Shown here one piece after another: positions 1,004 to 17,841 of a stretch of 17,841 nt of DNA. Numbering within the stretch: the first letter of the stretch is position 1; the number at the start of each line of letters is the position of its first letter. Both the position numbers and the translations under genes were made by a program. The DNA is from an uncultured Colwellia sp. (lineage in GTDB: Bacteria > Pseudomonadota > Gammaproteobacteria > Enterobacterales > Alteromonadaceae): NCBI GenBank assembly GCA_913020705.1, contig CAJWBY010000091.1, positions 1 to 17,841 of the forward strand. Reading direction: 5' to 3'. The notes under the pieces are model-generated. The model was given only the letters and a program-made list of their open reading frames with translations. It had not been told where the DNA came from and made no database searches.

Positions 1004-2437
1004 GTGTCTCACCACATAAAAGGGCAATCAAGAACCCAAGCTACTCTGTTTCCAGAGGCACTCGATGACTTTGTTACCGATGAAAACCCTCTAAGAGTCA
1101 TTGATGCATTTGTTGATAGTGTAGATTTAGCTTCATTAGGGTTTCAAAAAGTCGTAACCAAGGCAACTGGCCGCCCATGTTACCATCCAGGCATGATGCT
1201 CAAACTCTATATTTATGGTTATTTAAATCGTATCCAATCCTCACGCCGATTAGAAAAAGAAACTCACCGCAATGTTGAATTAATGTGGTTACTAGGGCGA
1301 TTAACTCCCGACTTTAAAACCATTGCAGACTTTAGAAAAGACAACAGCACAGGCATTAAGAATACGTGCCGTCAATTTATCCAGCTATGCCGTGAAATGA
1401 ATATGTTTACTAATGCGGTAGTTGCCATTGATGGTAGTAAGTTCAAAGCAGTAAACAATAAAAAAAAGACCTACACGCCTAAAAAAGCAAAGGACTTAAT
1501 TGCTCGGTTCGATGCGAGTATTGCTCACTATTTATCGGTTTTAGCGGATAAGGATAAACAAGAATATTCTGATGAAGATGTCACGGTCATGCATGAGAAA
1601 GTGGCGTGGATGAAGAAGAGACTTGTTGAATTAGCCGAGATTGAAAGAAAAGTGAATGAACATCCTGACAAACAATTATCACTGACCGACCCTGATTCAA
1701 GACTCATGAAAACGAGCAATATGGTGCGCCAAGTGTGCTATAACGTTCAATCTGCCGTAGATAGCCAACATCACTTGATCATTAGCCACGAGGTTACGCA
1801 AGCAACAGATAGAGGTAAGCTCCATTTAGTTGCTAGTCAAGTACAAGAAGCACTTGGAACCACAAATATAACCTTTGTGGCAGACAAAGGTTATTACAGC
1901 AGAGTTGATATTAAAAACGTGCTCGATACAGGCGCTGAAATGCTTGTACCTAAAGGTGATACTTCGGGCGCTACAAAAGCAGGGATATTCAACAAAAACC
2001 AATTCAAATACGACAAAGAAAAAGACGAATACATTTGCCCTGCGGGCAACGTATTACCTTATCGCCGCAATGCCATTGAAGATGGTTTAAAGCTAAAGAT
2101 CTATGTAAACCATATCGCTTGTAGAGATTGTGCAATTCGTGCAAAGTGCACTCGCTCACGCAAAGAGCCAAGAAAAATGAGGCGTTGGGAACATGAAAAT
2201 GAGATTGATGCCATGCACCAACGGCTCAAGGAAGCGAGCGACACGCCACTTATCCGAAAGCAAACAGTAGAACATCCATTTGGCACCATAAAAATGTGGA
2301 TGGGCGCTACTCATTATTTAACTAAGCGCTTAAAAAACGTAAGTACAGAGACTAATCTACATGTTCTTGCTTATAATCTGAAACGAATGATGTCGATTAA
2401 AGGCACTATTGGTTTAATGGAGTTAATCAGACAATAG
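1004..2437 (+). CDS. IS1182-family transposase
   Basis: DDE transposase of 477 residues that cuts and joins the ends of the surrounding element. The N-terminal part (about 1-120), with HPGMMLKLYIYGYLNR and the RRLEKE segment, is the DUF772-type domain of this family. The catalytic part shows the expected acidic residues: Asp143 in AIDGSKFKA, Asp294 in VADKGYYS and Glu423 in VEHPFGTIK. A cysteine cluster (about residues 345-382, CPAGN, CRDC, KC) precedes the last part, as in other IS1182 transposases. The start is GTG with AGGAG at 990-994, nine bases upstream, and a TATAAT box at 966-971 lies inside the element. The gene is full length without frameshift. ORFs in other frames over it are shadows. 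Confidence 0.93.
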   Translation: MSHHIKGQSRTQATLFPEALDDFVTDENPLRVIDAFVDSVDLASLGFQKVVTKATGRPCYHPGMMLKLYIYGYLNRIQSSRRLEKETHRNVELMWLLGRLTPDFKTIADFRKDNSTGIKNTCRQFIQLCREMNMFTNAVVAIDGSKFKAVNNKKKTYTPKKAKDLIARFDASIAHYLSVLADKDKQEYSDEDVTVMHEKVAWMKKRLVELAEIERKVNEHPDKQLSLTDPDSRLMKTSNMVRQVCYNVQSAVDSQHHLIISHEVTQATDRGKLHLVASQVQEALGTTNITFVADKGYYSRVDIKNVLDTGAEMLVPKGDTSGATKAGIFNKNQFKYDKEKDEYICPAGNVLPYRRNAIEDGLKLKIYVNHIACRDCAIRAKCTRSRKEPRKMRRWEHENEIDAMHQRLKEASDTPLIRKQTVEHPFGTIKMWMGATHYLTKRLKNVSTETNLHVLAYNLKRMMSIKGTIGLMELIRQ

Positions 2438-2632: not shown

Positions 2633-2930
2633 AATTTCAGCTTGTGGCTAAAAGACGAAATATTAATTTAGTTACTTGAAACTTCCCTTTGCGCACTAAA
2701 TAATCTTAATCTCTTAGTGGCAAAACTGATGTAATTATCCAAGTCGACTTATTGTAGGTGATACAACAGATACCTTTGGATTTATGGGGTGTCTGGTTAA
2801 CGAAAATAAAAAGCATCATAATGGATAAGTATTATATGTACCGTCTTCCCCTTTAATTTATTGAGTTTTTAACAGCGTAAGACATAAAAGATTATTCATT
2901 AATTTTTAGTGCGGTAATCAAAATCTTTTA
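2633..2930. other. Intergenic between the IS and the TetR gene
   Basis: About 300 bases with no convincing gene. On the minus strand a short stop-bounded run in one frame reads YISFATKRLRLFSAQREVSS, which looks protein-like but which I do not recognise. It may be another decayed remnant. A 10-bp AT-only inverted repeat (2884-2893 with 2922-2931) overlaps the tetR stop codon but has a 28-base loop and no GC, so it is not a convincing terminator. Confidence 0.35.
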
Positions 2931-3512
2931 TTATTCATACTTACGTAGTAATGCGTCTATATGTAAACTTACAGCGTCGAGGATCATTTTTTCCCAAGCT
3001 CCCGGTTCAATAACATCAGCAATGGCATGATGTTGTAAACTAATATAACCATGAATTAATGCCCATATTTGTAGTGCCGCTTGTCGCCTACTATCATAGT
3101 TTGCATCATCGGGGAGTAAAGTTGCGATAACATGGGTTATATGAATAAACGCTTTCTTTGCAGCTTCTTGTGAGAGTTCAGAAGGTATATACCCGCTATC
3201 ACTTTCACCAAAAATTAGTCGGTAGTGGCCTCGATATAACTGTGCTGTATTAATATAACCTTTGGCTGCAGCTAAAACGCCTAACTTAGGATGTTTAAGA
3301 TCAATAGAAACTTGAGTTGCGGCTAATACTAATTCAAATCCTTCAATATAAAGTGCATCTAAGATCCCTTGTTTACCCTCAAAATAGCTATAAATTCCTA
3401 TCGTCGATAAATTAGCTTCACGCGCTATTGCACGAACGCTTAATGCTAATAATCCTCCACGAAGAAATAACTGCGATGCAGCGGCCAAAATTTTTTCTTT
3501 AGTATTTTTCAT
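2931..3512 (-). CDS. TetR/AcrR-family transcriptional repressor with WHG-type C-terminal domain
   Basis: Protein of 193 residues, normal for TetR regulators. Residues about 5-50 form the helix-turn-helix DNA-binding domain (ILAAASQLFLRGG, IAREANLSTIGIYSYFEGK). The C-terminal part holds WALIHGYISLQHHAI, the WHG signature of one TetR ligand-binding subgroup. The gene is divergent from the flavoprotein-DUF2855 pair, and two near-identical palindromes lie in the 231-bp gap. I infer that it represses that pair and possibly itself, and is released by a small ligand, likely the substrate of the oxidoreductase. The ligand cannot be told from sequence. The ATG at 3512 has only a weak AAAGAA upstream. 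Confidence 0.9.
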   Translation of the reverse strand: MKNTKEKILAAASQLFLRGGLLALSVRAIAREANLSTIGIYSYFEGKQGILDALYIEGFELVLAATQVSIDLKHPKLGVLAAAKGYINTAQLYRGHYRLIFGESDSGYIPSELSQEAAKKAFIHITHVIATLLPDDANYDSRRQAALQIWALIHGYISLQHHAIADVIEPGAWEKMILDAVSLHIDALLRKYE

Positions 3513-3588
3513 TTAAATTTCTTTATAAACGATCTACTTAATCAATAAGTTTAATTTACCACATAATACAAAAATGATCTTGACAAAA

Positions 3589-3625
3589 TATAACAGTGTT
3601 ATAATGTAGAAAATAACAGCGTTAT
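3589..3625. promoter_or_regulatory. Two tandem palindromic operators, probably for the adjacent TetR protein
   Basis: TATAACAGTGTTATA (3589-3603) is a perfect 15-bp palindrome. ATAACAGCGTTAT (3613-3625) repeats it with ATAAC/GTTAT arms, centre to centre about 23 bp, roughly two helical turns. They sit in the divergent region between tetR and the oxidoreductase gene. A TTGACA (3580-3585) and a TATAAT (3600-3605, overlapping the first palindrome) are present but spaced only 14 bp, so the exact core promoter is unclear. Binding at either site should block transcription of the plus-strand unit. Confidence 0.68.
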
Positions 3626-3743
3626 ATTTAAGTTAAATAAAAAATAAATAATGAGTTAAATTGTGAAAATTATAATTTACTAAACTTAATAATAAAAATC
3701 ACATAACACATAGTTAACAATTCACACTTAGGAAGAGATATTT

Positions 3744-5184
3744 ATGGAAATTAAAAAATTAAATACTGATTATCTAGTTGTAGGTAGCGGTGCAATGGGT
3801 ATGGCATTTGTTGATGTTTTATTGAGTGAAACTGATGCTAATATAATTATTGTAGATAAGCACCATAAACCGGGAGGACACTGGAATAGCGCTTATCCTT
3901 TTGTAACTCTCCATCAACCATCCAATTTCTACGGTGTAAGTTCAACTGAATTAAGTAAAGGATTCAAAGACGAAGTAGGCTTGAATAAAGGACTAAGTGA
4001 ATTAGCAAGTGGTGCTGAAGTCAGTGCATATTTTTGATAATGTCATGAACCATAAGTTTTTAACATCTGATCGCGTTTCTTATTATCCAATGTGTGAATA
4101 TTTAGGTAATAATAAGTTTACTTCAACCACAAGTGGTCAAGCGTTTGAAGTTACTGTCAATAAACGAACTGTTGATGCGACATATTTAAATACTTCAGTA
4201 CCCTCTACGCATACCCCAAATTTTTCAATAGATAATGATGTTAACTTTGTTCCATTAAATAACCTGCCAATTATACAAGCCCCCCACTCACTATATGTTG
4301 TGGTTGGCGGCGGTAAAACAGGTATAGACGCATGTATTTGGCTGCTAGAAAATCAAGTTGACCCAGATAAAATCATGTGGATAACACCTCGGGATGCTTG
4401 GCTAATAGACAGAAAAAACACACAACCAACAGAAGAGTTTTTCTTTGATACTATGGAAGCACAAGCAGCTCAAATGGAAGCAATGGCTAACGCTTCAGAC
4501 ATAGATAATTTATTTGAAAGATTAGAGAATGCAGGTGTATTGATTAGAATCGATAAAAACATTAAGCCTGAAATGTATCACGGAGCTACAATTTCTGAAC
4601 TCGAACTCGCACAATTAAGACGAATTAAAAACGTTATACGTAAAGGACGCGTGACCCATATATCAAAAAATAATATTGCGTTTGAAAAAGGTGAAAACAC
4701 TACGCCTGACAATACTTTGTTTATTGATTGCTCAGCAAGTGCCATACGTGAATTTAAACCGTTACCTGTTTTTAATGGTCATGTTATTACCCTGCAAATG
4801 ATCCGAATCATTCAACCCGTGTTTAGCGCGGCACTTATTGCTCATATTGAAGCAGAATATCAAAACGACGATCAAAAAAATGCGTTGACTCAAGTTGTTC
4901 CAGCACCAAATAAATCAAACGACTGGTTAACAGTAAACGCGGCAAACATGCGAAATCAATATATTTGGTCTCAAGACAAATCATTACAGAAGTGGCTTTA
5001 TTTCAACCGATTAGACGGTTTTAGCAAAATGGTTGTCGACATATCAAAAGAAGACATAGCCAAACAAGCTGTTCTCAACCGTTTACGCAGTAATATACCC
5101 GCTGGCATGGGAAATTTAACAAGATTAATTTCAACATTAAAGTCTCCCGTTAAATTAATCGATAAGGAAAAAGCCAATGCATGA
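3744..5184 (+). pseudogene. FAD/NAD(P)-binding oxidoreductase (flavin monooxygenase-like), split by a one-base frameshift
   Basis: Two overlapping frames (3744-4037 and the frame open to 5184) make one protein of about 479 residues. The first part has a FAD-binding Rossmann fold: LVVGSGAMGMAF (GxGxxG at residues 14-19), an acidic residue ending the second strand (Asp38), then PGGHW and HQPSNFYGVSS, as in flavin monooxygenase-like enzymes. The second has VVVGGGKTG (about residues 188-193), a second nucleotide-binding fold that fits NAD(P)H. Removing one T from the run at 4031-4035 restores SAYF-DNVMNHKFL without a gap, so this is a single-base insertion, a read error, or less likely programmed slippage at TTT TGA. 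AGGAAG lies 8-9 bases before the ATG. The stop overlaps the start of the DUF2855 gene by 8 bases. The substrate is unknown. If the shift is real, the N-terminal piece (97 residues) cannot work alone. Confidence 0.82.
4031..4035 (+). other. Frameshift site (extra T in a T5 run)
   Basis: The frame reads TAT TTT TGA. Taking out one T gives TAT TTT GAT AAT and joins the two halves of the oxidoreductase. Homopolymer indels are common as both mutations and sequencing errors. Confidence 0.8.
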
Positions 5185-6395: not shown

Positions 6396-7280
6396 TTATT
6401 GGTTATAGACAGTGAAAATTTCTTTTCCTATATCCGCAATAGCTTTATTACGCTGTGCGAAGGACGCATCGGTTTGAGTTAAATAAATACTGATAATTAA
6501 AGGCGTTCTTTTATCAGACCAAACAACTGCGGTAATTGCTCTAGAGCCAAAACCACCAGAACCCGATCGGTCTGCAATCGACCACTCCTTTGGAAGTACT
6601 GAACGTAATAAACTTCCCGTGACTTTATTATCCATCATCCATTGTTTCAGTTGGTCTTTTGATATCTGAGATAATTCATCCCCAAACAATAATCTATGTA
6701 AACTTTTCACCATTGCATTTGGCGTTGTTGTATCTCTTTTATCACCATCAATTGCTTCATTTAAATCAGGTTCTATTCGATCTAAACGTGTTACATCATC
6801 ACCTATTCCACGCATAAACTGGGTTAACGCCTCAGGTCCTTTAATACCTTTAAGTACTATATTGGCGGCGGTATTGTCACTCATAATCATCGCGGCTGAG
6901 CATGCTTGTTTTAATGTCATTATTTTACCAATATTCTTCTCAGTTATCGGTGACCAAGTAACAAGTGATTTTTTCGTTATAATTGTTGAAGTATCAAAAG
7001 ATTGGATCCCTTTTTCTACATCAGAAAGTAACTTTGCACAGGCTAAAGCTTTGAATGTACTCATTAATGGAAATCTTAAATTACCGTTATAATGCCATAA
7101 ATCATTAGCCGCTAAATCATATATAGATACGCCAATACGTGCACCTGTCTTAAGCTCTTGCTCTGCTATTTCTTTTGATATCGTATTAGCTTGAACACTA
7201 ACAACGATCCCCATATTAAAGATTAAAAAGAAGATCGAAAAACTGAAGTTAATAAAAAGGCTTTTAAAACTAGATGTCAT
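6396..7280 (-). CDS. bla: Class A beta-lactamase, CARB/carbenicillinase (RSG) type
   Basis: Periplasmic serine beta-lactamase that hydrolyses penicillins. From the ATG at 7280 it has 294 residues. A signal peptide ends near VSVQA (about residue 31). All active-site elements are present: S74-T-F-K77 (Ambler S70xxK), S134-D-N (SDN loop), E170-P-D-L-N (omega loop, general base) and R238-S-G in place of KTG. An Arg in that position with DRSGxGGFGxRxITAVVW is the mark of the CARB/PSE carbenicillinase group. Cys81 and Cys127 match the disulfide Cys77-Cys123 of class A enzymes. The frame is open up to 7337, but only from a TTG without a ribosome site, and the signal peptide fits the ATG. No integron, transposon or regulator lies beside it, suggesting a resident chromosomal gene. 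Confidence 0.93.
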   Translation of the reverse strand: MTSSFKSLFINFSFSIFFLIFNMGIVVSVQANTISKEIAEQELKTGARIGVSIYDLAANDLWHYNGNLRFPLMSTFKALACAKLLSDVEKGIQSFDTSTIITKKSLVTWSPITEKNIGKIMTLKQACSAAMIMSDNTAANIVLKGIKGPEALTQFMRGIGDDVTRLDRIEPDLNEAIDGDKRDTTTPNAMVKSLHRLLFGDELSQISKDQLKQWMMDNKVTGSLLRSVLPKEWSIADRSGSGGFGSRAITAVVWSDKRTPLIISIYLTQTDASFAQRNKAIADIGKEIFTVYNQ

Positions 7281-7731
7281 AACAAATACCGTACTCTGTT
7301 TTATTAGACAGTTACAGATTTTGAAAGTAAAAATCAAAACGAGTAAATGCGTATATTAATACGTTGAATTTCAACATATGTTTGAAGCGTGTAATTATAT
7401 TCTTAAATCAATCTGGAGCAATGTTCAAATTATGATGAAATGTGGCAGAAAAATGTCAACTCATTTTTAAAATCTTTCCATTGCATAATTAGTTAATATT
7501 TAACCACGAAAGCTGACTTATTGAGTATCAACCGTCACTTTGAATATTTACGTAATCGACAATGTCTTCATCGAGTAGATCATTGAAAAGTTCTCTAACC
7601 TTAATACACTCAGGCCAGATATGTATGTCGTAATTTTATGGAGCACAAGCTTGAAATTTTAATTGGAAATATTCGACAAAACAAAACTCGCTTTATCGAT
7701 ATTAGTTTTTAAAATGCTTATAGAACTGCAG
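7281..7731. other. Gene-free stretch with one unidentified coding-like remnant
   Basis: About 450 bases upstream of bla and downstream of the pirin gene. On the minus strand 7528-7635 is open for 35 codons between stops and reads like protein (IHIWPECIKVRELFNDLL then DEDIVDYVNIQSDG), but it has no start codon or ribosome site, and I cannot assign it. The rest, including the presumed bla promoter, shows no confident signal. Confidence 0.4.
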
Positions 7732-11204: not shown

Positions 11205-11675
11205 ATGCTACATAAATTAGAGCCTATAAACGGAGTTTCAATATATAACAATACAAAAGAAGCTTTCGCTGAAAAAACTTTACATCTTCTGACTCGGTTA
11301 TCAATCAATGTACTTTCATTATTCTACAAAGGTAAATCAATTGAATTGCAGGAGACGCCAGAAAATACCCAACACCTTCAATATGAAATTATTCATCTAG
11401 TGGGAGAGATTAATTTCAACAACTCTGCAGTTATGAAAAAGAAATTATTAAACGTAATATCTGATCAAAAATCAGTTTTATTAGATTTTACAAAATTAAA
11501 TGTTATCGACAGTTCAGGAATAGCAACGCTGATTGAAATTTTTAATATTGCCGCTACAGCTGGCTTAAAACTACACATTGTTGGCGCCAATAATTTACCT
11601 TTGAAGATGTTAGAGTTAACTCAACTCAACAAAGTATTTACGTTATTTGATTCTATTCAAGATATAAAAGCATAA
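11205..11675 (+). CDS. STAS-domain protein (anti-sigma factor antagonist-like) with N-terminal extension
   Basis: Protein of 156 residues. Residues about 60-156 form a STAS domain with the signature NVIDSSGIATLIE, in which DSSG (102-105) holds the serine phosphorylated in RsbV/SpoIIAA-type antagonists. This domain is about half identical to the STAS protein at 15704-16027, and both end with MLELTxLNKVF-like and DIKA/EIKG sequences, so they are paralogues and may compete for the same partner. The first 55 residues (with an LLTRLSINVLSLFYKGK stretch) are extra, have no known domain that I recognise, and could be a short amphipathic or membrane-touching segment. AAGGAA is 8 bases before the ATG. 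It runs towards the phosphatase gene, 43 bp apart. Confidence 0.88.
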   Translation: MLHKLEPINGVSIYNNTKEAFAEKTLHLLTRLSINVLSLFYKGKSIELQETPENTQHLQYEIIHLVGEINFNNSAVMKKKLLNVISDQKSVLLDFTKLNVIDSSGIATLIEIFNIAATAGLKLHIVGANNLPLKMLELTQLNKVFTLFDSIQDIKA

Positions 11676-11718: not shown

Positions 11719-12975
11719 TTATTGGAAAACTTCAATAGCGCACAGCGTTAAATCGTCACACAGCTCATCACTTTCATTGAAATTCGTTAATGCGTCTGCT
11801 ACATCATCTACTAAACAATGTGGGCACGCTTCTGCATCAATCAAAACTTTTTCTAAGCGATCAAAACCAAACTCTTCTTGTTTGGTATTTCTTGTTTCGA
11901 GCACTACATCAGTATAAAGAAAAATAATATCATGATGCATCACCTTAATTTCATGATTACTCCATTCGTACTCTTTCAAAACTCCTATTGGAATGTCTTT
12001 ACCTTGATCAAGTCTGATTAAAGTGTCACCTCTTTTGATAAAGCCATAAGGATGTCCTGCACAGGCATAACACAAAATTTTGGTTTCAGGATCATAAGAC
12101 ATAGTGATAGCAGTAATGAACTTACCGCGATTTTTACGAGTGAAAAAATGTGTATTAACGTACTCGATGACTTGTGCAGGTTTTGGAGTATCCCCTTCGG
12201 GTTTAAAGGTACGTAGAATGGCATCAAACATTGCTGCCTCAACCGCTGCACTTGGTCCATGTCCAGTAACGTCGGCAATCATCACACCAAACTTATGAGG
12301 TTCACCTTCAGGTTTATCTTTCGATAAACTTGTGACATCAAAATAATCACCACCCGCTTCTTTATAAACTTTAAATTTAAACGCTAATTCTATACCGGGA
12401 ATTGATAGATCTTCTTCTGGTAATAATAAATGCTGCAGTCGAGAAATTTCACTTAATTCTTGTTCTCGCCAATTAGTGATCTCTTGTAATTTTTTCTTTT
12501 CTTCAGCACGAGCAATGCTCAATACAGCAAAGTTTACTAATAGATTAAGCTTTGATAAATCAAGACTGTGGCTATCATTTTCGGCATCTAAAATTAGCAC
12601 CCAACGCTCAACCTTAGCATCGAGTAGAATTGGCAAAACTAAAACATCGTCATAGTTTGCTAAATCATCTTGAAATAATGCAGCACAGTGTTCTTTGTAG
12701 ACATGAGATGGGCTAGACATTTTTTGCCATTGCTCAATAAAGTTACCACGAAAAATACGTTGTTCATTTGAACGTTTTAGGATTTCAGCCACTTTATATA
12801 TTGGCTGGCTGTTAGGGTGACAATAGTTAGAAATTTGAAAATGATTATCATCCAAATTTAAACTATTTATCACCGCAATAGTACAATCACCAAGCTCAGT
12901 AGAAAGGATGCTTTGTAGAAAAGCTAATGAATTAGGGAAACCTTCAATCTGACTTAACTTAGTAAGGTGTGTCAA
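11719..12975 (-). CDS. GAF-like sensor and SpoIIE/RsbU-type PP2C serine phosphatase
   Basis: Protein of 418 residues. Residues about 12-155 look like a GAF-type sensor domain; 156-185 (ARAEEKKKLQEITNWREQELSEISRLQ) form a coiled-coil linker with the QHLLLPEE motif that precedes PP2C domains of this class; 195-418 are the phosphatase. Metal-binding motifs are intact: AGGDYFD (207-213), ADVTGHG (234-240), AGHP (306-309), YTDVV (354-358) and DDLT (407-410). Such enzymes dephosphorylate STAS antagonists, reversing a kinase of the RsbW type, and both are encoded in this operon. The start is TTG, supported by AAGGAAG six bases upstream. No in-frame ATG precedes the sensor domain. It is the last gene, 38 bp after mlaC. 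The GAF ligand is unknown. Confidence 0.93.
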   Translation of the reverse strand: MTHLTKLSQIEGFPNSLAFLQSILSTELGDCTIAVINSLNLDDNHFQISNYCHPNSQPIYKVAEILKRSNEQRIFRGNFIEQWQKMSSPSHVYKEHCAALFQDDLANYDDVLVLPILLDAKVERWVLILDAENDSHSLDLSKLNLLVNFAVLSIARAEEKKKLQEITNWREQELSEISRLQHLLLPEEDLSIPGIELAFKFKVYKEAGGDYFDVTSLSKDKPEGEPHKFGVMIADVTGHGPSAAVEAAMFDAILRTFKPEGDTPKPAQVIEYVNTHFFTRKNRGKFITAITMSYDPETKILCYACAGHPYGFIKRGDTLIRLDQGKDIPIGVLKEYEWSNHEIKVMHHDIIFLYTDVVLETRNTKQEEFGFDRLEKVLIDAEACPHCLVDDVADALTNFNESDELCDDLTLCAIEVFQ

Positions 12976-12981
12976 TACCGT

Positions 12982-12988
12982 CTTCCTT
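12982..12988 (-). promoter_or_regulatory. Ribosome binding site supporting a TTG start
   Basis: AAGGAAG on the minus strand, 6 bases before the TTG at 12975. The next in-frame ATG (residue 86) would remove most of the sensor domain. Confidence 0.7.
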
Positions 12989-13013
12989 TTAGGTAATAAA
13001 TTAGGATTAATTG

Positions 13014-13607
13014 TTAAGAAGGTTTAGCGGAAACTTTCTTTTTCAGTACTTCATTCAAACCGGCTAAACCGCTGCGCTTTAAAGTAGCTTTATAGTCATT
13101 AGTATAAGTACTTATCAAAGATACGCCTTCAGCAGAAAAATCGTAAATGCGCCATTGATCATTTCTAAGTAATAATTTGTAATTTACTGGGATCTTTTTA
13201 TCAGTTAATACAATGTTGGTATTAACCTTGGCATATTTGCCTTTTTTAATTTCTTCTTTTAGATATTCTACTTCTTCATTGTTGTATTGATTTAACAATG
13301 AAGCGTAAGTGTTCACAATAACTTGCGTGAAAAGTGAAATAAACTCTTGTTTGTCTTCTTTATTCGCTTTTTTCCAGTATCGCGAAACTACCCGTTGGGA
13401 AACTACGGGGATATCCATTTTGTTTTTCACTATTTCGGTAATACTGACTTTCTTTTCTTCAAGTGATAATGCTTTATTACCAGCAACGCTAACAAAAAGA
13501 TTAACAGCTTCTGTTAATGATGAGGTTGGTGTTCCCGTTTCAGCTTTTGAAACAAAAGAGCTAAAAGTACATAGGGTTAATAAAACTGTTATTAGTATAT
13601 TTTTCAT
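13014..13607 (-). CDS. mlaC: MlaC/Ttg2D-like periplasmic phospholipid-binding protein
   Basis: Secreted protein of 197 residues from the ATG at 13607, with a signal peptide MKNILITVLLTLCTFSSFVSKA and cleavage near residue 22. The mature part matches the MlaC family: VSQRVVSRYWKKANKEDKQEFISLFTQVIVNTYASLL and, later, NYKLLLRNDQWRIYDFSAEGVSLISTY, the family's most conserved block. MlaC proteins carry phospholipids across the periplasm between the outer-membrane complex and the MlaFED transporter. A GTG at 13625 would extend the N terminus by six residues, but the ATG gives the proper signal peptide and lies just after the mlaD stop. It sits between mlaD and the phosphatase gene, which is unusual for an mla operon. 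Confidence 0.9.
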   Translation of the reverse strand: MKNILITVLLTLCTFSSFVSKAETGTPTSSLTEAVNLFVSVAGNKALSLEEKKVSITEIVKNKMDIPVVSQRVVSRYWKKANKEDKQEFISLFTQVIVNTYASLLNQYNNEEVEYLKEEIKKGKYAKVNTNIVLTDKKIPVNYKLLLRNDQWRIYDFSAEGVSLISTYTNDYKATLKRSGLAGLNEVLKKKVSAKPS

Positions 13608-13611
13608 GGTT

Positions 13612-14070
13612 TTACTCGTTATCACTATCTGAACTAAAAATATATTTACTGACTAATTCTTCAATACTAATAGAAGATTCTGTTTCAATGATCTCATCAC
13701 CTGGTTTTAATATATCATCTGATGCACCAGGAGAAATTTTAACAAATTTATCACCAATAATTCCTGATGTTCTGATAGAAGCAATCGTATCTTCAGCTAA
13801 GATAACACCGCTATCAAATACAAAAACAGCCACAGATTCAAAGGTTTCTTTATCAAGTTCAATACTCGTTACTTTACCCGCTTTAACGCCGGCAATCTCT
13901 ATAAAAGCGCCCTCTTTTAAGCCTGAGCTACTGTCAAATTTTGCAACTAACTGATAACTGTCAGCAGAATAACCAGAAACACCAGCAATAGTTACCGAAA
14001 GATAAGCCATTGTACCCATGCCAAATAACATAAAGAGGCCTACAATAAAATTCACGTTCATTTTTTTCAT
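13612..14070 (-). CDS. mlaD: MlaD-like MCE-domain protein
   Basis: Protein of 152 residues, somewhat shorter than E. coli MlaD. One N-terminal transmembrane helix (about 8-28) anchors it in the inner membrane. The periplasmic MCE domain follows (about 38-116) with YQLVAKFDSSSGLKEGAFIEIAGVKAGKVTSIEL and IRTSGIIGDKFVKISPGA, both typical. MlaD forms the hexameric ring on the transporter that exchanges lipid with MlaC. The end, rich in acidic and serine residues, replaces the longer tail of canonical MlaD. AGGAAA precedes the ATG. It follows mlaE by 16 bp. Confidence 0.93.
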   Translation of the reverse strand: MKKMNVNFIVGLFMLFGMGTMAYLSVTIAGVSGYSADSYQLVAKFDSSSGLKEGAFIEIAGVKAGKVTSIELDKETFESVAVFVFDSGVILAEDTIASIRTSGIIGDKFVKISPGASDDILKPGDEIIETESSISIEELVSKYIFSSDSDNE

Positions 14071-14086
14071 AATATATTTCCTAAGC

Positions 14087-14896
14087 TCACAACATTAATG
14101 AGCTAACAATGTAATCAACAAATAACATTAATACAGCACTGAGCACTACGGCTTGCGTCGTTGCCTGACTCACCCCAACAGCACCAGACTGTTTTTGCTC
14201 AATGTGTAAATAAAAACCTTTAGACATACAAACAGTCATGATAACTAAGCCAAATAGAAATGACTTAACAATACCCATCCAAACATCATTCCAAACAATG
14301 GTATCAGCCATACCTACTAAAAATGCGCCATCGCTGACACCATGAATTAATACGCCTACAATATATCCGCCACCTATACCAAAAGTGTCAAACATTGCAG
14401 TAAGTAAAGGTACTGAAATTATTGCAGCGAGTAATCTTGGCAACATAACATAGTGAAAACTGTCGATAGCCATACAATCAAGCGCATCAAATTGTTGTTC
14501 ATTCCGCATAATGCCTATTTCAGCACAGGTCGCGGAGCCTACACGAGCAATAACCATAAGTGCTGCCATCACTGGACCTAACTCACGAATTAAGCTCATG
14601 GCAACCGCAGCCCCTAACAGATCAACGGAGCCGAAGCGGATCAATGTATCGTAAAACTGAAGTGCAACAACCATACCCGTAAAAAGCCCGGATATTAAAA
14701 TAAGGGGAACCGTTCTCGCGCCAATGAAAAGAAGTTGCTTGATTGTTTCCTCTAAGGGGAAACGGTACATCCACAATCTTGATAAGGTATTAAAAAGAAA
14801 AACGCCTAATCTACCTGAAGATTCAACAATGCCTAAACCTGAATCACCCAAATGTTCAATTTTCGTTTTAACTTTCGTCATAAATACGGTCAACAT
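14087..14896 (-). CDS. mlaE: MlaE-like ABC transporter permease
   Basis: Inner-membrane protein of 269 residues, the normal MlaE length, with about five to six membrane segments. The conserved LILISGLFTGMVVALQ, the LIRELGPVMAALMVIARVGSATCAEIGIM block and NEQQFDALDCMAID (the coupling helix that contacts the ATPase) identify the family. Together with MlaF and MlaD it forms the lipid-transporting core. The ATG at 14896 begins one base after the mlaF stop, and the GGGGAAAA used as ribosome site overlaps the end of mlaF. An internal ATG at 14881 lacks such a site. Confidence 0.94.
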   Translation of the reverse strand: MLTVFMTKVKTKIEHLGDSGLGIVESSGRLGVFLFNTLSRLWMYRFPLEETIKQLLFIGARTVPLILISGLFTGMVVALQFYDTLIRFGSVDLLGAAVAMSLIRELGPVMAALMVIARVGSATCAEIGIMRNEQQFDALDCMAIDSFHYVMLPRLLAAIISVPLLTAMFDTFGIGGGYIVGVLIHGVSDGAFLVGMADTIVWNDVWMGIVKSFLFGLVIMTVCMSKGFYLHIEQKQSGAVGVSQATTQAVVLSAVLMLFVDYIVSSLML

Positions 14897-14897
14897 G

Positions 14898-15701
14898 CTA
14901 ATTTTTCCCCGTAGTTAAACGTTTAATATATTCGTCCGCATCGAGATGTTCATCTCTAGCTCGGCGATTAATCATGTTTTGAATGCGTATATCTTTACTG
15001 TTTTTTATTTCATCTACGGTACCAGTAATCGCTATTTCGCCATCAAATAACACCGTAATTTTATCTGCAATTTTAAACGCACTCTCTAATTCATGAGTAA
15101 CAACGATGATAGTCATGTTCATGGCATCACGCAGTTTAAGAATTAATTCATCAAGCTCAACGGCAGTAACAGGATCAAGCCCTGCTGATGGCTCATCAAA
15201 AAAGAGTAATTTGGGATCCATTATCACCGCACGCGCCAAACCAGCGCGTTTTAACATACCACCCGAAAGCTCAGAAGGCATTAGATCTTCATAACCGGCT
15301 AAATTCATTAACTCAAGCTTTAACCGAGTCATGATATCAATAGTGTGTTCATCAAGTTTGGTATGATGCTGTAAAGGAAGCTTTATATTTTCGCCAACGG
15401 TCATCGAACTAAATAGTGCTCCTCCTTGAAAAGCTACACCCATTTTTTGTCGTAACTTTAACAGTGTTTTACGGTTAGCGTTAACCACATCAACACCATC
15501 AATAACAATACTTCCTGAAGTGGGCGTGAGTAGCGCTAACATGTGATTAAGTAATGTACTTTTACCCGAACCACTCCCCCCCATAATGACTCTAATTTCA
15601 CCTTTTTCTACAGAAAAATTAATGTCTTTAAGTATGTTGCGATCACCGTAATGTGTCACCAGATTTTTGACTTCAATAATGCTTTGATTACTTGACGTCA
15701 T
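14898..15701 (-). CDS. mlaF: MlaF-like ABC transporter ATP-binding protein
   Basis: Cytoplasmic ATPase of 267 residues that energises the MlaE permease. All ABC motifs are in place: Walker A GGSGSGKST (41-49), Q-loop Gln92 in VAFQGGALFSSMTVGEN (typical of MlaF), signature LSGGM (145-149), Walker B LLFFDEP (165-171) with Glu170, and the switch His203. In E. coli this subunit binds the STAS protein MlaB. Here the gene directly follows a STAS gene by two bases, suggesting that this STAS protein is its partner. AAAGGAT is the ribosome site. The C-terminal extension past the nucleotide-binding domain (about 235-267) fits MlaF. Confidence 0.95.
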   Translation of the reverse strand: MTSSNQSIIEVKNLVTHYGDRNILKDINFSVEKGEIRVIMGGSGSGKSTLLNHMLALLTPTSGSIVIDGVDVVNANRKTLLKLRQKMGVAFQGGALFSSMTVGENIKLPLQHHTKLDEHTIDIMTRLKLELMNLAGYEDLMPSELSGGMLKRAGLARAVIMDPKLLFFDEPSAGLDPVTAVELDELILKLRDAMNMTIIVVTHELESAFKIADKITVLFDGEIAITGTVDEIKNSKDIRIQNMINRRARDEHLDADEYIKRLTTGKN

Positions 15702-15703
15702 GA

Positions 15704-16027
15704 CTATCCTTTTATTTCGTCAAGGCTGTCTATCATTGGAAATACTTTATTTAAATGGGTTAGTTCCATTACTTGTAAAGGCGCTCCTGTAGCTCCAACA
15801 ATCGTCAAAGACAACTGTTTGTTTTTCGCTAGATTGTAAGTTTCCACTAAGGTGGCAATACCTGAACTGTCTATGTAACTTAATGCAGAAAAATCAACGA
15901 TAACTGAACTGCCCGATTCGACAATATCAAGCAACTGTTTTCTCACCTGAGGAGAATTGTGTAAATCTACTTCGCCAGTAAGTGCTAATAATTGATAATG
16001 TAGGTGTTTTTTTTGCTCAAAGGTCAT
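15704..16027 (-). CDS. STAS-domain protein, RsbV-like antagonist and candidate MlaB substitute
   Basis: A 107-residue protein that is all STAS domain. SYIDSSGIATLVE carries DSSG at 53-56, the phosphorylatable serine site of RsbV/SpoIIAA antagonists. E. coli MlaB, the STAS subunit bound to MlaF, has a Thr-containing variant there, as I recall it. The gene overlaps the RsbW-like kinase gene by 11 bases, with AAGGAT as ribosome site, and ends two bases before mlaF, so it stands between kinase and ATPase in position and probably in function. I infer two partners: the kinase, which would phosphorylate it, and MlaF. Its close paralogue lies at 11205-11675. Confidence 0.9.
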   Translation of the reverse strand: MTFEQKKHLHYQLLALTGEVDLHNSPQVRKQLLDIVESGSSVIVDFSALSYIDSSGIATLVETYNLAKNKQLSLTIVGATGAPLQVMELTHLNKVFPMIDSLDEIKG

Positions 16028-16445
16028 TTTGAGATCCTTTAGGTAAGTGTTTTTTTAATTCTAAAATATTGCCTACTGAACCTTCAGGAGGAAGCAGTTG
16101 AACAAAGTCCATCACTTGATATATAAGTTGTAAGCCCAGTCCTCCAGGCTCTAGTATATTCGTTTTTCTCAGCTCTAAGCATGATTTATCAATACATTTT
16201 GCAAAATCTTGCAAATGAAATATTGCTTCATTTTCATGCTCAAAGATTTCAAGAATAATTCGTCCAGATTCGCCACCGTAGGCATAGCGAATGATATTGG
16301 TGCAGGCCTCGTCAATAACAAGGGTAATAAGGTTAATATCACTCTCGGAATACATTAACACATGGCATGCCTCTCTCACTTTATCCCTTATTTGGCATAA
16401 TTGGCTGGTACAAGCGCTGTGTTCAACATGCAGAATGCGTTTCAT
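16017..16445 (-). CDS. RsbW-like serine-protein kinase (anti-sigma factor type, HATPase)
   Basis: Cytoplasmic protein of 142 residues with a GHKL ATPase domain, the size of RsbW/SpoIIAB kinases. The N-box is VIDEACTNIIRYAYGG (43-58, with Glu46 and Asn50), a G1-like Asp80 lies in LQDFA, and GGLGLQLI (101-108) forms the ATP lid. The G1 box lacks the usual glycine after Asp, so ATP binding should be tested. Such kinases phosphorylate a STAS partner and, when the partner is phosphorylated, bind another target, usually a sigma factor. Here no sigma gene is near; the partner gene overlaps by 11 bases, and mlaFEDC follow. It is the first gene of the operon. Its ribosome site is weak (AAAGA). Confidence 0.88.
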   Translation of the reverse strand: MKRILHVEHSACTSQLCQIRDKVREACHVLMYSESDINLITLVIDEACTNIIRYAYGGESGRIILEIFEHENEAIFHLQDFAKCIDKSCLELRKTNILEPGGLGLQLIYQVMDFVQLLPPEGSVGNILELKKHLPKGSQNDL

Positions 16446-17425: not shown

Positions 17426-17758
17426 ATGATGGACTTTACACATCAAGGAAAAGCAATGGTTATCGGTGGTTCAAGTGGTATGGGGTTAGCGACTGCGAAA
17501 TTATTAGTTAAGCACAATGTTGAAGTTATTATTGTAGGTCGTAAAGCCGAAAAATTAGAGGAAGCATTAAAGCAACTTAATGCGATAGGAAAAGCTTCTG
17601 CGATCCAAGCTGATCTTTATAAAGAAAACCTTGCACTAAAGTACCGTTTACTTTCTTCCCTATTCGGCGGTTTTGGCCATCAATCAGGTAGTCGATTAAG
17701 GTATTACCCGGTAAGGTCACCGACATCAGGTTTCCTAACACGTCGTAATCGTAATTAG
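17426..17758 (+). pseudogene. Short-chain dehydrogenase/reductase, truncated
   Basis: The first 66 or so codons are a clear N-terminal SDR Rossmann fold: AMVIGGSSGMGLATAKLLVKHNVEVIIVGRK contains the GxxxGxG cofactor loop, and the Arg/Lys after the second strand suggests NADPH. A complete SDR has about 240 residues with NAG and S-Y-K catalytic motifs. None is present, because the reading frame passes at 17607-17624 into sequence that is antisense to an Rhs gene and stops at 17758. The AGGAG (17417-17421) better fits the second ATG (17429) than the first. No catalytic activity is expected. Confidence 0.85.
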
Positions 17759-17841
17759 TAATAATATCTGTAGTATTAGTATCCGTCTTGGACATCAATT
17801 CGCCGTTATCTGTATAAAGGTACGTATTATCGCCATAAAGC
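17577..17841 (-). pseudogene. Rhs/YD-repeat protein fragment (5' end outside window)
   Basis: The minus strand is open from the window edge to a stop at 17577 (88 codons). From the edge it reads [20 protein letters not shown], then [29 protein letters not shown] and [11 protein letters not shown], the tyrosine-aspartate repeats and the conserved strand of Rhs-type shell proteins. Large Rhs proteins enclose polymorphic toxins. After KDQL the normal continuation (NPIAEL-like) is missing, and the frame runs into antisense SDR sequence, so the 3' part, including the Rhs core end and any toxin tip, is lost here. It could also be a contig-end repeat copy. Confidence 0.85.

Follow-up and report, generated by a model that had tools for sequence, protein, structure and literature searches.

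A putative partner switch encoded together with an Mla-type lipid transporter in Colwellia and other bacteria

Introduction

In Escherichia coli, Thr52 of the STAS protein MlaB is located at the interface with the transporter ATPase MlaF, and the T52E substitution weakens the binding of the two proteins (PMC7367683), and the T52A substitution abolishes ATPase activity (PMC5016091). Phosphorylation of MlaB has been hypothesised, without experimental evidence (PMC5016091), and both the level of active MlaB and STAS phosphorylation as means of Mla control have been stated to be open questions (PMC7367683). Here we analyse the window, i.e., a whole stretch of 17,841 nucleotides from an uncultured Colwellia sp. 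(contig CAJWBY010000091.1), in which an RsbW/SpoIIAB-like kinase, a STAS protein and a SpoIIE-type phosphatase are encoded in one array with MlaF-, MlaE-, MlaD- and MlaC-type proteins. The evidence as a whole is probably best explained by a partner-switch-like system that has an ABC-type lipid transporter as its output. An earlier note on this DNA had read the array in the same way, proposing that the switch sets phospholipid transport, and this reading is supported by the comparative sequence evidence presented here.

No description of this arrangement was found in the open-access literature, although most subscription journals and bioRxiv lie outside that search, so that the absence is not proof. 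The available portion of PMC8256260 never mentions Mla, and that of PMC11418112 includes neither a transporter nor MlaB.

The locus and its relation to the canonical Mla system

The seven genes of the array and a second STAS gene adjacent to it are as follows.

16017..16445, minus strand: RsbW/SpoIIAB-like serine kinase, 142 aa (Pfam HATPase_c_2, 9.5e-15)
15704..16027, minus strand: STAS protein, 107 aa (Pfam STAS, 9.4e-21; TIGR00377; PDB matches)
14898..15701, minus strand: MlaF-type ATPase, 267 aa, with a C-terminal YxxxL tail (ABC_tran, 2.5e-32)
14087..14896, minus strand: MlaE-type permease, 269 aa (PF02405, 3e-68; TIGR00056; tree)
13612..14070, minus strand: MlaD-type MCE protein, 152 aa (PF02470, 1.7e-18; TIGR04430, 134.6 bits)
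13014..13607, minus strand: MlaC-type periplasmic lipid carrier, 197 aa (PF05494, 2.2e-39)
11719..12975, minus strand: PPM/SpoIIE-type phosphatase, 418 aa (SpoIIE, 2e-38)
11205..11675, plus strand: second STAS-only protein, 156 aa (Pfam STAS, 4.2e-18)

All seven minus-strand open reading frames (ORFs) were verified by an ORF and Pfam check of the window, and the intergenic gaps, from kinase to phosphatase, are -11, 2, 1, 16, 4 and 38 bp, which bears out the earlier description of seven minus-strand genes with gaps of 38 bp or less and suggests that they form a single operon. Scans for promoters (18 sites, compared to 21.7 in shuffled sequences) and terminators (5, compared to 2.8) were uninformative. 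The phosphatase ORF starts with TTG, and the start of MlaC was taken to be the ATG at 13607, with an alternative GTG upstream at 13625. The window kinase is 99% identical to a kinase from a Colwellia metagenome-assembled genome (MAG).

The Pfam domains of MlaE, MlaD and MlaC score above the cut-offs, and the MlaF-type identity rests on blast and the tree. Window MlaE also exceeds the NCBIfam TIGR00056 cut-off (215.5 vs 212.2 bits), and window MlaF and MlaE are, respectively, 37% and 36% identical to their E. coli counterparts. Because the E. coli-type equivalog models for MlaB (30.3 bits for a cut-off of 90), MlaD (134.6 for 135), MlaF (206.9 for 441) and MlaC (52.8 for 195) all score below their cut-offs, the window Mla genes appear to encode a paralogous system rather than the E. 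coli orthologue. The best NCBIfam match of the MlaC-type protein is the hopanoid-associated HpnM (90 bits, cut-off 160), above the E. coli MlaC model. A Pfam scan of 20 ORFs of the window detected no MlaA.

In seven related genomes (G001-G007), an additional MlaE is encoded in an ordinary mlaFEDCB-ibaG operon beside yrbG and kdsD (one copy read per genome), with murA seen there in six of the seven; one of these genomes (G003) has a further match. Over the 3.6 kb read, the same canonical operon is present in G028, G171 and G215, and only the module copy of MlaE was found in G008 and G009. The statement of the earlier note that canonical mla operons contain only MlaB, with neither kinase nor phosphatase, holds for E. 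coli and for the one copy read in each of the seven relatives. Compared with the canonical copies of these relatives, the window MlaF and MlaE show 38-40% identity. Since 10 of the 12 genomes with the window arrangement (hereafter type I) also possess ordinary mlaFEDCB, the type I module appears to be a second Mla system. The possibility that its STAS protein is simply MlaB was rejected because this protein fails the MlaB model and the canonical operon is present besides in those 10 genomes.

Conservation of the type I arrangement

An alignment of 26 kinases was used to scan genome contigs, yielding 76 loci. The complete order kinase-STAS-MlaF-MlaE-MlaD-MlaC-phosphatase was identified by tblastn with the window proteins in L001, L002, L004, L005, L006, L008 and L009; in L003 and L007, the first genes are present, and the loci are then cut by contig ends. 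When 394 genomes of the order were searched with a kinase profile, 13 were found to encode the kinase, five of them already known and eight new, and three of the new loci (L126, L127 and L129) contain the complete module. Altogether, all seven genes are found in the same order and on the same strand in 10 other loci, with kinases from 98% down to 39% identical to that of the window; this recurrence argues that the arrangement is not due to chance, and a one-off or assembly accident was rejected on the same grounds. The module is rare, being present in 8 of the 394 genomes, with some copies cut by contig ends. The earlier note had named lack of conservation in relatives as a refutation of its reading; the arrangement is conserved, and more widely than in the Alteromonadales.

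In L127 and L129, an MlaA gene is located directly 5' of the kinase gene; in L126, this position is occupied by a cytochrome c' gene. The phosphatases of L127 and L126 are 99.7% and 99.5% identical to proteins named as those of Shewanella frigidimarina and Gallaecimonas pentaromativorans, respectively, and therefore cultured relatives exist. The profile search also detected kinase-STAS pairs that lack mla genes (L128 and L130-L133). A dnaX gene was verified nearby in each of the four pairs tested (L128, L130, L131 and L133).

The wider family

Another arrangement, phosphatase-kinase-STAS-MlaE-MlaF-MlaD, is found in L010, L020, L021, L027 and L036; a sixth locus, L018, begins at the kinase, and no phosphatase was found beside it. 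The hosts of these six loci include an Oceanospirillales MAG, two Nitrospirota, the alphaproteobacterium Ferruginivarius sediminum and a Phycisphaerae MAG. Pfam GAF domains are present in all four phosphatases tested (L010, L020, L021 and L027). An apparent MlaE-MlaF fusion in L027 and L018 was rejected, as the reading frames overlap in GC-rich DNA. In L010, the phosphatase gene of the switch-linked transporter operon for lipids is directly preceded by a CDP-alcohol phosphatidyltransferase gene (2757-3629), which may point to a connection with phospholipid synthesis.

A second kinase profile, built from the kinases of these six loci, was used to survey the class of L010 and the phylum of L021 (the labels gammaproteobacteria and Nitrospirota are deduced from the records of these two loci). 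The kinase was detected in 45 of 274 gammaproteobacterial genomes (47 matches) and in 29 of 198 Nitrospirota genomes (30 matches). MlaE or MlaF is encoded on the same strand within 1.5 kb of the kinase in 42 of the 47 and 26 of the 30 cases, respectively, which are not unbiased rates because the profile was made from module kinases; as a background, 3 of 28 MlaE matches in 13 Nitrospirota genomes lie beside a kinase (3.6 kb read). In 41 of the 47 gammaproteobacterial and 29 of the 30 Nitrospirota survey loci, a phosphatase gene is found no more than 400 bp from the kinase. Thus, the wider family appears to extend over gammaproteobacteria, Nitrospirota and a few other loci, mostly in the order phosphatase-kinase-STAS-MlaE-MlaF-MlaD.

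Other gene orders include ...STAS-F-E-D-C, with MlaA between D and C in L234, an ORF in this position in L239 and nothing there in L246, and ...STAS-E-D-C with MlaF converging on the opposite strand, with MlaA between D and C in L245 and L247 and an ORF there in L241. The sensors vary as well, i.e., GAF, HDOD (L236, L250) or a receiver domain (L246). The presence of MlaA lipoprotein genes in all five candidate neighbours tested (L127, L129, L234, L245 and L247) fits lipid transport between membranes. In 9 of 56 loci (L215, L219, L222, L223, L229, L236, L241, L244 and L247), the phosphatase and the kinase are encoded in a single ORF, and both domains were verified by Pfam in L236 and L241, the two tested.

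Co-inheritance of the switch with MlaF

For phylogenetic analysis, 98 MlaF rows (95 plus three added) and 97 MlaE rows were assembled, and 67 and 65 of these, respectively, were used for the trees. The remaining rows were set aside to limit run time, a choice that preceded inspection of these large trees but followed that of the smaller ones; loci lacking a complete MlaE or MlaF were omitted, as was L259, by a script rule. In the MlaF tree, 37 of the 41 switch-linked MlaFs, representing all gene orders, are located on one side of a branch with support 98/96, a count that leaves aside the long-branched, kinase-less L204, which falls within. Switch-linked and canonical MlaFs together with L204 (48 rows) exclude the other kinase-less MlaFs (100/99), and a tree constrained to unite type I with canonical MlaF is rejected (p 0.007; here and below, p-values of the approximately unbiased tests are indicative only, given that the hypotheses were derived from the smaller tree and several rows are long-branched). 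In the MlaE tree, type I and the FEDC and EDCF types share a group with canonical MlaE and part of the kinase-less Nitrospirota MlaE (100/99), whereas MlaE of the phosphatase-kinase-STAS-E-F-D loci is placed away from this group. A single clade for all switch-linked MlaE is rejected (log-likelihood difference 143), and so is an MlaE clade constraint on the loci of the MlaF clade, minus the two without MlaE (p 0.0005). Because MlaF unites the switch-linked rows while the MlaE lineages differ, it appears that the ATPase and the switch remained together, whereas the permease was exchanged.

Four genomes show the same pairing of the ATPase with the switch in trans. In G769 and G622, MlaF is the sole transporter component of the switch operon (L250 and L251); an MlaE-MlaD pair is encoded elsewhere (L272 and L270), and the 3.6 kb read there contains no MlaF. 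The switch genes of G719 and G643 stand by themselves, and these genomes encode a window-type MlaF (63%) at another site, together with MlaE and MlaD (L275 and L278).

The C-terminal tail of MlaF points in the same direction. In E. coli, Tyr261, Leu265 and Leu266 of this tail sit between MlaB and MlaF (PMC7367683). All 98 MlaF rows were scored for the pattern Y-x-x-x-[LIMV] within the last 22 residues, with L211 and L212 (by hand) and L210 (by coverage) excluded from the kinase-less set beforehand. The tail is present in 65 of 65 complete switch-linked MlaFs, 8 of 8 canonical MlaFs and 1 of 25 kinase-less ones; the one kinase-less exception is L104, whose long tail is unrelated, and the tail of L191 appears frame-garbled and cannot be judged. 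Among the later additions, the tail is absent in the kinase-less L269, L283 and L204 and present in the detached L275 and L278, as well as in five of six further canonical MlaFs (L282 has Phe in place of Tyr). This pattern is what would be expected if the switch STAS occupies the site of MlaB.

The switch proteins

Against PDB sequences, the window kinase matches RsbW and SpoIIAB weakly; it retains E46 and N50 of the N box, D80 and PGGLG (100-104). The G1 box usually has the form D-x-G; in the window kinase it is D-F-A. The N-box Glu and Asn, the G1 Asp and PGGLG are invariant in the 19 modules aligned; the window family has Ala or Cys in place of the G1-box Gly, which is kept in L018, L020, L021 and L036. 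We describe the module as working like a partner switch and do not assign it to the RsbU/V/W systems, because its kinase has this divergent G1 box and no SigB/F/G-type sigma factor exceeded the model cut-off in 17 module genomes.

The STAS protein scores 67.2 bits with TIGR00377, the anti-sigma antagonist model (cut-off 53.45), and has a longer C-terminus than MlaB; an MlaB-like role is predicted for it. The candidate phosphoserine is Ser54 in the motif YIDSSG, which is found in all 19 modules aligned. A further 49 loci were checked for both motifs, and 47 match the serine pattern and 43 a strict N-box pattern. The six kinases outside the latter pattern still have Glu and Asn, and the two STAS exceptions are L264, which has DSSA, and L259, where a different STAS was read.

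The phosphatase is predicted to consist of a GAF-fold region (~1-164) and a long linker helix (140-183), followed by the PPM domain, with metal-binding Asp210, Asp235, Asp356 and Asp407/408 invariant in the 36 sequences aligned. A further motif is TDV in type I vs TDG in the other type (type II). The GAF domain asserted in the earlier note stands on structure prediction and fold search, for which the N-terminal part was predicted separately, because the fold search with the whole model barely probed it; Pfam gave no GAF match in the window phosphatase even at E<=5, and Pfam-based evidence for this domain was accordingly dropped in favour of the fold evidence.

Proposed mechanism and alternatives

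We propose that the STAS protein is a substrate of the kinase, with Ser54 as the most likely site, and that the GAF-containing PPM phosphatase would remove the phosphate in response to a signal. In its unphosphorylated form, STAS would bind MlaF at the helical subdomain and the C-terminal tail, like MlaB in E. coli, and would retain the ATPase on MlaE in an active state; once phosphorylated or held by the kinase, STAS would leave MlaF, and transport would fall. We infer the phosphorylation, the binding, the direction of the effect, the signal and the direction of lipid movement, with the direction of the mechanism drawn by analogy from MlaB, where T52E reduces MlaF binding and T52A abolishes ATPase activity while MlaB remains bound.

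Several observations weigh against this scheme. The switch-linked MlaFs of L018, L020, L260 and L263 group with canonical MlaF, apart from the rest, and the kinase-less control for the tail is narrow (24 of 25 from Nitrospirota, one from Phycisphaerae). Nine survey kinases are not located beside mla genes (5 of 47 and 4 of 30; of these nine, L181 is at the edge of its contig and the contig of L160 is cut), and the five kinase-STAS pairs of the order lack mla genes as well. The STAS protein is far below the cut-off of the MlaB equivalog NF033618, and the replaced G1-box Gly and the TDV motif make the activity of window-family kinases and phosphatases less than certain. Finally, the bound but inactive state of the T52A protein fits poorly with simple on/off control of binding and warns that the importance of this residue may extend beyond binding.

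An alternative that we consider unlikely is that the kinase and STAS act on an effector encoded elsewhere (a sigma factor, a diguanylate cyclase or a SypA-like target), with the transporter merely co-expressed. Known partner switches target sigma factors or, for SypA, an unidentified target (PMC8256260), the STAS protein scores as an anti-sigma antagonist, and related kinase-STAS pairs exist without mla genes. Weaker sigma-70-family matches, below the TIGR02980 cut-off, were detected in all 17 module genomes; nevertheless, no SigB/F/G-type sigma factor exceeded this cut-off in any of the 17, mostly draft, genomes (compared to 1 of 14 controls), and there is no sigma factor gene within the operon, as the earlier note had observed. 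It is this absence, together with the MlaF tree and the MlaF tail, that suggests MlaF as the target of the switch, and switch operons with MlaF as the sole transporter gene also argue against an effector elsewhere. Service of the STAS protein to a distant sigma factor, which the earlier note had named as a possible refutation, is thereby made unlikely.

About equally improbable, in our assessment, is that phosphorylation affects MlaF in another way (phospho-STAS activates it, or the serine is catalytic), or that the second STAS protein is the actual substrate or a competitor. The loss of ATPase activity with persisting binding in T52A would be compatible with such an effect, whereas the reduced MlaF binding of T52E argues against it. 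The gene for the second STAS protein, which is 47% identical to the operon STAS over 106 aa, is convergent with the phosphatase gene and is also present in the Colwellia-type loci L001 (14841-15311) and L002 (14944-15414), but tblastn and blastp did not detect it in L005, L006, L008, L009, L126, L127 or L129, all of which extend past the phosphatase; it possibly lies outside the module. The least likely alternative, that STAS is a constitutive MlaB-like subunit merely titrated by a degenerate kinase that sequesters it without phosphorylation or is inactive, would account for the altered G1 box and TDV motif but not for the kinase motifs and DSSG serine kept in 19 of 19 modules, the invariant metal-binding Asp residues or a closely linked phosphatase, which would be pointless without a phosphoprotein.

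Implications

If the transporter-gating switch proposed here is correct, partner switches would have a new class of output, in which a transporter takes the place of gene expression, and a pairing that recurs in distant bacterial groups could explain on/off control of lipid pumps between membranes. These operons offer a candidate kinase, phosphatase and sensor for the residue equivalent to MlaB Thr52, which makes the phosphorylation hypothesis directly testable, and a cultured host should exist, given the complete operon L127 with its phosphatase nearly identical to that of S. frigidimarina.

More tentatively, and with doubts that outweigh our confidence, we suggest that a STAS-docked serine-phosphorylation gate on an ABC transporter is ancient and widespread, with exchangeable sensors and permeases around a fixed MlaF-STAS core, and that E. 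coli MlaB is its stripped-down remnant, which would explain why a residue that can be phosphorylated persists in MlaB where it contacts MlaF. In the MlaF tree, the canonical proteins are placed among the switch-linked MlaFs of L018, L020, L260 and L263 (supports 92/84 and 99/84), hinting that MlaB may have descended from a switch STAS, but a tree with canonical MlaF outside the switch-linked MlaFs is not rejected (p 0.205).

Other features of the window

A transposase of the DUF772/DDE_Tnp_1_6 type is encoded at 1004-2437 (plus strand) and a beta-lactamase family protein (Pfam Beta-lactamase2, 2e-36) at 6396-7337 (minus strand). Two overlapping ORFs in different frames at 3744-5184 may represent a single, interrupted oxidoreductase gene; an NAD(P)-binding motif is present in the first of them, and the second has no Pfam match. 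At 17426-17841, a truncated short-chain dehydrogenase ORF (plus strand) overlaps an opposite-strand RHS-repeat fragment that runs off the window end, which is either an insertion or an assembly join.

Comparison with known systems

The module shares with the E. coli MlaFEDB/MlaC system the homologues of MlaF, MlaE, MlaD and MlaC in F-E-D-C order, a STAS protein and the YxxxL tail of MlaF, but E. coli mlaFEDCB encodes neither kinase nor phosphatase, and its STAS protein is the short MlaB at the operon end. A fold search with the window phosphatase returned the PP2C structure of SiaA (6k4e). SiaABCD of Pseudomonas aeruginosa is a partner switch without a sigma factor, and its output is a diguanylate cyclase, not a transporter. 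SypE and SypA of Vibrio fischeri are likewise comparable in that kinase and phosphatase activities act on a STAS-type protein whose output is not a sigma factor or is unknown, and SypE combines both activities, as the fused ORFs of the wider family would, but the output is biofilm regulation rather than a transporter (PMC8256260). With RsbU-RsbV-RsbW and SpoIIE-SpoIIAA-SpoIIAB, the module has in common a kinase with N and G2 boxes, a STAS acceptor serine motif and a sensor-linked PPM phosphatase; it differs from them by the degenerate G1 box and by a lipid ABC transporter in the place of the sigma factor.

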